From: Sedimenticola sp.
GTDB lineage: Bacteria > Pseudomonadota > Gammaproteobacteria > Chromatiales > Chromatiaceae
DNA length: 32,811 bases
Assembly (NCBI GenBank): GCA_026984055.1
Contig: JALSSX010000280.1
Span: 1 to 32,811 of the forward strand
Direction: 5' to 3'
How positions within the stretch are numbered: the stretch's first letter is position 1; each line of letters opens with the position of its first letter. The notes under the pieces were generated by a model. That model had not been told where the DNA came from. It did not search any database and saw only the letters and a program-made list of their open reading frames with translations. Position numbers and translations under genes: made by a program. Positions 4,571 to 29,408 of the stretch are shown here, one piece after another.

Positions 4571-4610
4571 CCCGGATTTCTCACCCGTTCACTACTGCGA
4601 CCGCCCAATG

Positions 4611-4716
4611 CGATTTCCCGGTTCCTTCATTTTCAATGACTTGCCGTCATCGAAAATGGCGGTACATCCCTGTACCGCACACAGACCATTGAAAAATGCC
4701 ATTTTTCAATGGTCTG
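4611..4716 (+). repeat. Composite hairpin-chain repeat, copy A
   Basis: About 90% identical by eye to the reverse complement of 18194-18300, and partly shared with 14460-14491. It contains consecutive hairpins. CATTTTCAATGAC pairs with GTCATCGAAAATG (12 of 13). GCGGTACA pairs with TGTACCGC around tccc. CAGACCATTGAAAAATG at 4682-4698 pairs perfectly over 17 bp with 4700-4716. The leading CCGGTTCC lacks the partner arm found in the other copies, so the left end looks truncated. It sits between two convergent genes and could also end their transcripts. Confidence 0.85.
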
Positions 4717-4737
4717 CTAACTTTCATGAAGGGATAC

Positions 4738-4770
4738 AGCCATGGCCAACCAAACGTCGAATCTTGGCGA
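4738..4770 (+). repeat. GCCATGGCC-type short motif, copy 1
   Basis: The motif reads AGCCATGGCCAACCAAACGT followed by CGAATCTTGGCGA. It matches the reverse complement of 23570-23601 at 25 of 31 positions and that of 29238-29263 at 20 of the first 22. All copies are intergenic. Confidence 0.55.
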
Positions 4771-4803
4771 GATGATTCATAGCACCACCTTCAGGTCGAT
4801 TGC

Positions 4804-12593: not shown

Positions 12594-12647
12594 TTCGGAT
12601 TGGCTTCTTTGCCACCTCCTCGCCCGCTCTACAGGTACACCCCGCAC

Positions 12648-14399
12648 ATGCCAGACCCCAATATCCTACCCGGTTTCGATGAACTGGAACTCGATCCGCG
12701 TCTCCTCCAGGCTGTCCAGGATGTCGGCTACGAAACCCCGTCACCCATTCAGGCAGCCTGTATTCCCCCCCTGCTGGCAGGCAAGGATCTGCTCGGTCAA
12801 GCCCAGACCGGCACAGGCAAGACCGCCGCGTTCGCATTGCCGCTGTTGTCACGCATCGACCTGGGCAAGGCAGCACCACAACTGCTGATACTGGCGCCGA
12901 CCCGTGAGCTGGCCATCCAGGTCGCCGAGGCGTTTCAGAGCTACGCCCGCCATCTACCGGGCTTCCATGTGTTGCCAATCTATGGTGGCCAGTCCTACGG
13001 TCTGCAACTGAGGCCACTGAAGCGCGGCGTGCATGTCGTCGTCGGAACGCCGGGACGGGTAATGGACCACATCCGGCGTGGCACCTTGCAGCTCGACAAG
13101 CTGCAAGCGCTGGTCCTCGACGAAGCCGACGAGATGCTGCGCATGGGCTTCATCGACGATGTCGAATGGATACTCGAACACACCCCACAGGAACGCCAAA
13201 TCGCGCTGTTCTCGGCAACCATGCCGGATGTCATCCGCAAGGTGGCGAGAAAGCATCTGAACAAGCCGGAAGAGGTGCGCATCGCAAGCAAGACGACCAC
13301 CGCCGACACCATCCGCCAGCGGTACTGGCAGGTCAGCGGCCTGCACAAGTTGGATGCCCTGACGCGCATCCTGGAGAGCGAGGACTTCGACGCCATGCTG
13401 GTGTTCGTGCGCACCAAGACCTCGACCGTGGATCTGGCCGAGAAACTATCGGCGCGCGGCCATGCCTGCGAGGCGCTGAACGGCGACATTCCGCAGGCGA
13501 ATCGCGAGAAGATCGTTGACCGTCTAAAGCGCGGCAAGCTGGATATTCTGGTCGCCACCGACGTGGTCGCGCGTGGCCTCGACGTGGAGCGCATCAGCCA
13601 TGTCATCAACTACGACATCCCCTATGACGTGGAATCGTACACACATCGCATCGGACGCACCGGGCGCGCCGGGCGCAAAGGCGACGCCATCCTGTTCATC
13701 GCGCCGCGCGAACGCCGCCTGCTACGCACTTTCGAGCGGCATACCCGTCAACCGATCGAGGCGATGCAGATGCCCTCGACCAGCGAGATCAACATAAAAC
13801 GCATGGACCGCTTCAAGCAGCGCATCAGCGACACCCTAGCCAGCAATGACTTGGACATTTTCACCCAGGTGGTCGGTGACTATCAGCAAGAACACGACAC
13901 CGACCCGCTGTTAATCGCCGCCGCACTCGCGAAACTTGCCCAGGGCGAGACGCCGCTGCTGCTCAGCGACAGACCACAGCGTAAAAAGGCAGACAAAAGA
14001 GAACGCGCCGAGCGGCCGGGCACAAACAAGCGCACCGAGAAACGCAACCGGCCAGTCAAGGATGCCCCGTCCAGCAAAGCCTTGCCATTAAGCGAATTCC
14101 CGGATATCCCGATGGAGCGTTACCGTCTCGACGTCGGTTATCAACAGAACGTCAAGCCGGGGAACATAGTCGGCGCAATCGCTAACGAGGCTGAGATCGA
14201 AAGCTGCTACATCGGCCATATCGAGATTCACGATGACTTCTCGACCGTGGACCTGCCCGAGGGCATGCCGCCGGAAACGCTGAACACACTGAAAAAGGCC
14301 TGGGTCTGTGGCCAGCGCCTGAACCTGCGCAAGTACAGCGACAAACCCAGCAAGAGGAAAGGCCCGAAACATGCCGGCAAGGCAAGAAAGCGGACCTAG
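12648..14399 (+). CDS. deaD: DEAD-box ATP-dependent RNA helicase, DeaD/CsdA type
   Basis: A 583-residue helicase. Motifs in order: Q motif (GYETPSPIQ, 27-35), Walker A (AQTGTGKT, 52-59), PTREL (84-88), TPGR (134-137), DEAD (158-161), SAT (189-191), ARGLD (308-312) and HRIGRTGRAGR (333-343). A lysine/arginine-rich linker (about 465-495) joins a C-terminal DbpA-like RNA-binding domain (MERYRLDVGYQQNVKPGNIV onward) found in DeaD/CsdA. The family unwinds structured RNA in ribosome assembly and mRNA turnover, especially in the cold. I chose the ATG at 12648 because the helicase fold begins just after it; the longer frame from 12600 adds residues with no homology features. The stop abuts repeat copy B directly. 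Confidence 0.93.
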   Translation: MPDPNILPGFDELELDPRLLQAVQDVGYETPSPIQAACIPPLLAGKDLLGQAQTGTGKTAAFALPLLSRIDLGKAAPQLLILAPTRELAIQVAEAFQSYARHLPGFHVLPIYGGQSYGLQLRPLKRGVHVVVGTPGRVMDHIRRGTLQLDKLQALVLDEADEMLRMGFIDDVEWILEHTPQERQIALFSATMPDVIRKVARKHLNKPEEVRIASKTTTADTIRQRYWQVSGLHKLDALTRILESEDFDAMLVFVRTKTSTVDLAEKLSARGHACEALNGDIPQANREKIVDRLKRGKLDILVATDVVARGLDVERISHVINYDIPYDVESYTHRIGRTGRAGRKGDAILFIAPRERRLLRTFERHTRQPIEAMQMPSTSEINIKRMDRFKQRISDTLASNDLDIFTQVVGDYQQEHDTDPLLIAAALAKLAQGETPLLLSDRPQRKKADKRERAERPGTNKRTEKRNRPVKDAPSSKALPLSEFPDIPMERYRLDVGYQQNVKPGNIVGAIANEAEIESCYIGHIEIHDDFSTVDLPEGMPPETLNTLKKAWVCGQRLNLRKYSDKPSKRKGPKHAGKARKRT

Positions 14400-14491
14400 C
14401 AGGCCGTTGAAAAAGTCCTTCCATGGACTTTTTCAACGACGGAACCGGAAAATGCAACTTCCCGGTTCCTTCATTGTACCGCACACAGGCC
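14400..14491 (+). repeat. Composite hairpin-chain repeat, copy B (internally deleted)
   Basis: It begins at the base after the helicase stop. The first hairpin is a perfect 14-bp stem (CGTTGAAAAAGTCC, loop ttccat, at 14405-14438). The second pairs GGAACCGG (14441-14448) with CCGGTTCC (14462-14469). It then runs from CTTCATT straight to GTACCGCACACAGGCC, missing about 40 bases (the CATTTTC hairpin and one arm of the next) that copies A and C retain. It lies between convergent genes and may double as their terminator. Confidence 0.85.
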
Positions 14492-18040: not shown

Positions 18041-18354
18041 GGGATATCGAAAAATTCCTTACATGGAATTTTCTCGTCCCAAAGAGAAAATACGATTGCC
18101 TCTTTGCTCACATTTTCCATCACTTATCGTGACCGAAAAGGGTGGGATATCCCTGTCTCGCTCGGGCATCTCGATTTTTCGAGATGCCCTTAACAGGCCA
18201 TTGAAAAATGGCATTTTCCAATGGCCTGTGTGCGCTACAGAGAGGCACCGCCATTTTCGATGACGGCAAATCATGGAAAATGAAGGAACCGGGGAAATCG
18301 TATTTTCCGGTTCCGTCGCTGAAGAAGTCCATGGAAGGACTTTTCAACAGCCTG
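18041..18354 (-). repeat. Composite hairpin-chain repeat, copy C (longest)
   Basis: This fills most of the 451-bp gap between the zinc operon and the tRNA. Read on the minus strand it starts like copy B (GTTGAAAAGTCC hairpin, then the GGAACCGG/CCGGTTCC hairpin at 18285-18314) and continues like copy A through CAGGCCATTGAAAAATG (18194-18228, 16 of 17 pairs). It then adds modules not seen elsewhere: a perfect 11-bp hairpin GGGCATCTCGA (18164-18189), the palindrome GGGATATCCC, and CGAAAAATTCC (18048-18076) around the loop ttacat, close to the loop ttccat of copy B. No protein-coding content is convincing. The promoter of the zinc operon must lie in or near its left end. Confidence 0.85.
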
Positions 18355-23438: not shown

Positions 23439-23571
23439 GCCGTAAACGCACCCTCTTCGCCGTGAAAGTTGCCCGTGCTTCGGCCAAGGGATGTCCGAGG
23501 CCAAGCCTACACGCACGCATTTACGGCGTTCCCGCAGACGCACCAGAGGTGTCGGATCGTGGACTTTCACG
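23439..23571 (-). promoter_or_regulatory. Candidate L20-binding leader pseudoknot of rpmI-rplT
   Basis: Two long-range pairings interleave in the mRNA. Arm 1 is CGTGAAAGT (23571-23563) with ACTTTCACG (23469-23461), nine perfect pairs. Arm 2 is GCCGTAAATGC (23527-23517) with GCGTTTACGGC (23449-23439), eleven pairs including one U-G. Their order 1-2-1'-2' is a pseudoknot. A local hairpin GCTTGGCC/GGCCGAAGC (23506-23477, one bulge) sits between arm 2 and arm 1', and CACC-tct-GGTG between arm 1 and arm 2. In E. coli L20 represses rpmI by binding a long-range pseudoknot at this place. The last arm ends 87 bases before the rpmI ATG. Confidence 0.55.
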
Positions 23572-23601
23572 CAAAAATCCGATGTTCGGCTGGCCATGGC
23601 G
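23570..23601 (-). repeat. GCCATGGCC-type short motif, copy 2
   Basis: On the minus strand this reads CGCCATGGCCAGCCGAACAT then CGGATTTTTGCG and matches 4738-4770 at 25 of 31 positions. It ends where the first arm of the rpmI leader pseudoknot begins. Confidence 0.5.
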
Positions 23602-29237: not shown

Positions 29238-29263
29238 TGCCGACGTTTGGCTGGCCGTGGCTA
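29238..29263 (-). repeat. GCCATGGCC-type short motif, copy 3
   Basis: On the minus strand TAGCCACGGCCAGCCAAACG followed by TCGGCA; 20 of the first 22 shared bases match the copy at 4738. Confidence 0.5.
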
Positions 29264-29408
29264 TAAACTAGACCCAATATGACAATGGCGCAACTGGTGG
29301 AAGACGCTACCATGCCCTCGACCAAACAAACGTTGGACTTTGGCGTGCGCGCCATCTGGCGCGAAAAGACGTGATTGATTGCCTGTGATTCGTCTGCGGG
29401 GCCAGTCT

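Follow-up and report, generated by a model that had tools for sequence, protein, structure and literature searches.

What is the chain of hairpins that recurs between the genes of a 32,811-nt stretch of Sedimenticola sp. DNA (contig JALSSX010000280.1, assembly GCA_026984055.1; the whole of this stretch is the window below), and what holds its fold in place? A preliminary description made from the sequence alone listed three intergenic copies, at 4611 (A), 14400 (B) and 18041 (C), sharing inverted-repeat modules in fixed order, with paired arms that had changed together in places. It took this to suggest selection on the folded form, in an element more complex than ordinary REP elements. The repeat described there does exist. 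The interpretation placed on it is supported only in part: selection on the fold is strongly supported across lineages but not by comparison of copies inside this genome, the REP framing is wrong, and the CsrA/RsmA-type sites in the loops of the opposite strand had gone unseen. Our reading, to which we give a probability of roughly two in three, is that the repeat is a small transposon-like element whose hairpin chain, on one strand, would act as a mobile RNA decoy for the global regulator CsrA.

Structure and copy number of the element

The last hairpin of copy A is a perfect 17-bp stem around one base, as described, and copy A is 89.6% identical to copy C over 115 bp. The three copies are nevertheless not equal (Table 1). 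Comparison of 68 full-length copies from the same genome gives one consensus of 161 bp, which reads CAGG-hp1-hp2-hp3-hp4-hp5-CCTG, with imperfect inverted ends. Against this consensus, copy A is a chimera that has lost its left third, and the sequence to its left is the beginning of another repeat family, joined at AATGCG, which both share. Copy B lacks hairpin 3, half of hairpin 4 and most of hairpin 5. Copy C is two elements head-on, C2 and C1, both found by a covariance model of the core (R1, described below); C1 belongs to the main subfamily. Copy number is far above chance. In the 3.16 Mb host genome, 174 places match a 43-nt core within 3 mismatches (81 forward, 93 reverse), while the reversed pattern, used as a control, gives 0.

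Table 1. Coordinates of the repeats and their parts within the window
Position	Strand	Feature	Basis
4571-4606	+	Fragment of an unrelated repeat (CCCGGATTTCTCACC family) fused to copy A at AATGCG	Seen complete beside other copies, e.g. locus L027, and in part beside L013 and L022
4607-4716	+	Copy A: right two thirds of the MITE (half of hairpin 2, hairpins 3, 4 and 5)	R1 hit 4592-4686, E 3.5e-14
4628-4658	+	Hairpin 3 of copy A (CATTTTC...GAAAATG)	Covarying structure
4659-4678	-	Hairpin 4 of copy A; minus strand of 4664-4675 reads GUACAGGGAUGU	12/12 match to the CsrA SELEX consensus RUACARGGAUGU (PMC7652899)
4682-4716	+	Hairpin 5 of copy A: right terminal inverted repeat as a palindrome	Sequence
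4717-4720	+	CTAA, right target-site duplication	YTAR rule from 68 copies
4739-4772, 23567-23600, 29241-29265		Further short dispersed repeat, around GCCATGGCCAACCAAACGTCG, three times in the window	Sequence
14396-14399	+	CTAG, left YTAR site; contains the TAG stop codon of the DEAD-box helicase gene	ORF 12600-14399
14400-14491	+	Copy B: hairpins 1 and 2 intact, hairpin 3 and half of 4 deleted, right end truncated	Sequence comparison
18041-18189	+	Copy C2: divergent member of the same superfamily with another terminal repeat (GGGATATCGAAAAATTCC / GGGCATCTCGATTTTTCGAGATGCCC)	R1 hit 18075-18169, E 3.5e-9
18190-18193	+	TTAA, target site at the C1 right end	YTAR rule
18194-18354	-	Copy C1: full-length 161-bp element inserted next to C2	R1 hit 18224-18318, E 2.3e-15

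Mobility and genomic position

The element is flanked by four-base duplications, CTAA, CTAG, TTAA, TTAG or TTAT, which are identical on the left and right in 41 of 68 copies, against 13.9 expected from shuffled partners. YTAR is the target of the IS5 group, and a short, non-coding, high-copy element with such ends and duplications is a MITE. In related genomes (G numbers denote genomes and L numbers loci of the set examined), IS5-family transposons carry the ends of the MITE. In G034, an element at L236:814-2006 has ends GGGCACCTTGAAAAATTGGG/GGGGACCTCGAAAAATTGTG and the duplication TTGA, matching the MITE end of that genome, GGGGACCTTGAAAAATTGCC (L105); L226 is a further such locus in G034. 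In G167, an element (L288) has ends GGAAGCTCTGAATAAGTTCA/GGATGCTCTGAACAAGTAAT and the duplication CTAA, matching nearly identical, and so recent, MITEs with GGAAGGTCTGAATAAGTCC. The target duplications in G034 and G167 are mostly of YTAR type. Similar but less exact pairs occur in G325 (L283) and G137 (L286). The proteins of L236 and L212 are DUF772 + DDE_Tnp_1 and hit NCBIfam transpos_IS5_4 (NF033581). In the host genome itself, the only PF01609 match is a degenerate IS4/IS5-type transposase remnant at a contig end (L091, G000:C240:12-176), so no active partner was found there, although the assembly breaks at repeats and a copy may have been missed. A search of the host genome for a Y1 (RAYT) transposase (PF01797), which the preliminary description had named as a check, gave 0 matches; the REP model therefore fails.

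That further copies should lie at gene ends is confirmed. With genes approximated by long ORFs, the 68 copies usually have a gene end within 60 bp (many 3'-side distances are 0-60 bp), whereas 5'-side distances are mostly above 100 bp. About 17 gene ends lie 0-1 bp from a copy because YTAR contains TAA or TAG, and the duplication restores the stop codon; copy B sits on a stop codon in this way. Orientation to neighbouring genes is unbiased, with 33 copies plus-sense and 31 minus-sense downstream of genes.

Conservation of the hairpin chain

An exact 30-nt scan of public genomes found nothing, but a degenerate pattern did recover relatives. Its hits L155, L163, L169, L186, L188, L199 and L203 were set aside as chance matches, and the only match in viral contigs, L211, was also judged to be chance. 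Diverged versions occur in 23 of 92 genomes searched, the host included, and in named genomes of Sedimenticola (among them the MAG contig JALVEB010000197.1), Thiohalocapsa, Thiococcus and Ca. Thiosymbion. An alignment of 36 diverged cores (A1) has 29 pairs, of which 20 show changes on both sides. To validate the structure, the alignment was compared with 500 shuffles: 93.2% of cells are paired against 80.7% in shuffles, 144 cells show two-sided changes against 47, and the covariation score is 0.393 against 0.166. None of the 500 shuffles reached the observed values, and sliding the partners destroys the signal. The covariance model R1 finds the core in 50 of 276 gammaproteobacterial genomes, representing 34 families, with many genomes at the reporting limit of 15 matches. 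It also finds the core in 25 genomes of other classes of the phylum, where even the outer stem of hairpin 3 has changed on both sides. End sequences differ between genomes while the interior and the hairpin order stay.

Among the copies of the host genome, compensatory changes are not significant as evidence for selection on the RNA. There, one-sided changes in stems are as often A.C as G.T (92 and 73), and private double changes are about as frequent as chance. The AGACC/GGTCT change between copies A and C, cited in the preliminary description (AGGCC/GGCCT in C), is real, but within the genome it is a single private event. In alignment A1 there is likewise no wobble bias for either strand (G.T 34, A.C 28). 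Individual copies therefore seem to decay neutrally, and we infer that the covariation was fixed in the lineages that keep moving.

Loops resembling CsrA/RsmA sites

Read on the minus strand, hairpin 4 of copy A is GCGGUACAGGGAUGUACCGC. Within it GUACAGGGAUGU agrees at 12 of 12 positions with the CsrA SELEX consensus, with GGA in the loop and AC and GU pairing as in the selected ligands (PMC7652899). Hairpin 1 is CAUGGAAG here and CAGGAUG in many genomes, the motif repeated in E. coli CsrB (PMC7652899). Over 86 elements, GGA lies in the minus-strand loop of hp1 in 65/82 and of hp4 in 71/84, and the CA(N)GGANG form, the CsrA/RsmA binding motif, in 48/82 and 62/84; the plus strand has GGA in only 7/82 and 1/84. 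As a control, in a set of 80 elements, the loops of hp2 and hp3 never carry the motif (none among 80 and 79 loops). The variable loop columns of hp4 are the two N positions of the consensus. Some copies have lost a loop motif, as in hairpin 4 of C1, and the plus strand begins with an unpaired CAGGATG, which is the end sequence itself. The csrA gene is present in the host and in 47 of the 50 element-bearing genomes, although it is nearly universal in the class (242/276), so its co-occurrence tells little.

In the complete genome G075 (one contig), the element occurs in tandem, with R1 hits about 70-200 bp apart. The array at L331:1499-2280 has 8 and that at L336:1496-1932 has 5 CA(N)GGANG motifs on one strand, and neither has any on the other, which resembles CsrB. 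G167 has a longer variant (L311, L312, L314, L317, L318 and L320) with an insertion in the hairpin 1 region that adds, as read by eye, further CANGGANG stretches on the minus strand; the near-identity of these copies suggests recent activity.

Similarity to RsmW

No Rfam family matches the window at its gathering score except a tRNA. Below that level, however, the Rfam model of RsmW (RF02809, clan CL00106), an RsmA-binding sRNA of Pseudomonas aeruginosa, aligns end to end (1-124) with L110 on the minus strand (E 1.9e-4 in 30 kb, 1.9e-6 in 301 nt). The first RsmW hairpin (AGGA loop) corresponds to hp4, followed by hp3 and hp2, and the last (AGGGA loop) to hp1. A search of 16 genomes found more full-length matches in G350, from another class, and in G075. 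The matches in L330 and L335 (E 2.5e-4 and 1.2e-3) and in L331 and L336 (per genome 0.0014 and 0.009), like that in L110, each lie antisense to an R1 hit at the same place. The E-values, from about 1e-6 to 1e-2, depend on search size, and the best score, 44.6 bits, is below the gathering score of 52. A scan of 20 other loci gave no match. A search of 370 gammaproteobacterial genomes gave one weak partial hit, judged to be chance, although its strict filter scored only 9 candidates per genome; the laxer run over the 16 genomes recovered hits located at the element. RsmW binds RsmA with a Kd of 11.5 nM, lies in the 3' UTR of PA4570, and was reported as having no homology to other Rsm RNAs (PMC4950607). 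It shares with the present element four hairpins in the same order and strand, GGA loops in the first and last of them, and the 3'-UTR position. It differs from the present element in being described as a processed 3'-UTR RNA rather than a repeat, in the 7 GGA motifs reported for it, and in that hairpin 5 and the right transposon end are absent in its model.

Interpretation

The analysis establishes an IS5-type MITE with a conserved, oriented hairpin chain, found in many families of Gammaproteobacteria and in other classes of the phylum. It also establishes that two loops on the minus strand are held to CA(N)GGANG while their stems drift with compensation, and that the RsmW model fits whole elements on exactly that strand and in the same hairpin order. 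What we infer beyond this, from sequence alone, is transcription, CsrA binding, decoy action and a link in origin with RsmW. In this view, when a neighbouring gene is transcribed through a copy in the minus direction, the RNA would fold into an RsmW-like chain that binds a CsrA/RsmA dimer, and a genome full of copies would act as a dispersed CsrA decoy or would put individual 3' UTRs under CsrA. Selection would act on the lineages that keep transposing, and inserted copies would then decay neutrally, mostly at gene ends because YTAR contains a stop codon. The unbiased orientation and the absence of wobble bias argue against selection on each copy as RNA, and the sub-threshold Rfam scores remain a weak point. 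RsmW would be a domesticated copy or would share an ancestor. The boldest form of this reading is about as likely as not: a transposable family of CsrA/RsmA decoy RNAs carried between IS5-type ends, spread in tens to hundreds of copies over many families of Pseudomonadota, sometimes expanded into CsrB-like arrays, and the evolutionary source of at least one Rsm sRNA, RsmW.

Csr/Rsm decoy RNAs evolve fast, and a mobile source would explain how new decoys arise in 3' UTRs. It would also mean that in genomes with hundreds of copies, read-through transcription of repeats could set free CsrA levels. The question of why a transposon keeps a folded RNA, protein-binding in this view, becomes testable, and R1 provides a ready covariance model for finding more. 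Our literature searches found no CsrA-binding MITE. CsrB/CsrC and RsmX/Y/Z are also hairpin arrays, with CAGGA(U/A/C)G loops, but they are dedicated genes rather than mobile repeats, and there was no Rfam hit to those families here. IS5-family MITEs share the ends like IS5-group inverted repeats, the YTAR duplication, the high copy number and the lack of coding capacity, but the interior here is a conserved structured module shared between genomes whose end sequences differ, not a remnant of the local IS. Correia, ERIC, BOX and RUP elements are also small, dispersed and intergenic, with stable folds and effects on transcripts (PMC10969869), although none was found described as binding CsrA or as conserved in structure across families and classes. 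REP/REPIN elements with RAYT are likewise intergenic palindromes near gene ends; the present element differs in having inverted ends and a target duplication, in a genome without a Y1 transposase.

The rival that survives best, although we consider it unlikely, is an ordinary IS5-mobilised MITE whose folding matters only at the DNA level, as a cruciform or single-stranded hairpins that help transposition or transposase recognition, with the GGA loops incidental or contacted by the transposase. The IS5-type ends and YTAR duplication, the lack of a G.U over A.C excess in stems and the lack of orientation bias are consistent with this. Against it, two separate loops, on one strand only, are held to exactly the fixed positions of CANGGANG while its N positions vary, and the whole-length match to RsmW lies on that strand. 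The partner IS5 elements (L236, L226 and L288) share the end sequences, and no copy of the interior was noticed in them, though without a systematic scan. Much less likely is that the compensatory changes arise by mutation, through hairpin-templated repair (quasipalindrome correction) that keeps the arms identical in slowly drifting copies. The terminal palindrome, hairpin 5, does show recurrent paired variants inside one genome (position 133/155, G-C 36, A-T 24), but private double changes elsewhere in the host copies are near chance, and such repair explains neither the conservation of loops and hairpin order across classes nor the persistence of many one-sided mismatches. A host-useful 3'-end element (bidirectional terminator or mRNA stabiliser) like REP, ERIC or BOX repeats is equally improbable, because although copies cluster just behind gene ends, target choice plus removal of harmful insertions suffices to explain this, both orientations are equal, no Y1/RAYT gene is present and the window has no Rfam match but a tRNA.

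Other repeats in the host genome

The sequence fused to copy A belongs to a second dispersed family, CCCGGATTTCTCACC...GGTGAGAAATCCGGG, which also occurs beside L013, L020, L022, L027 and L028. It too lies next to YTAR sites (TTAA/CTAG) and looks like another MITE. Copy C2 represents a second subfamily of the hairpin-chain superfamily in the same genome, with a different terminal repeat; pieces of GGGCATCTCGATTTTTCGAGATGCCC occur near L003, L006, L007 and L014.
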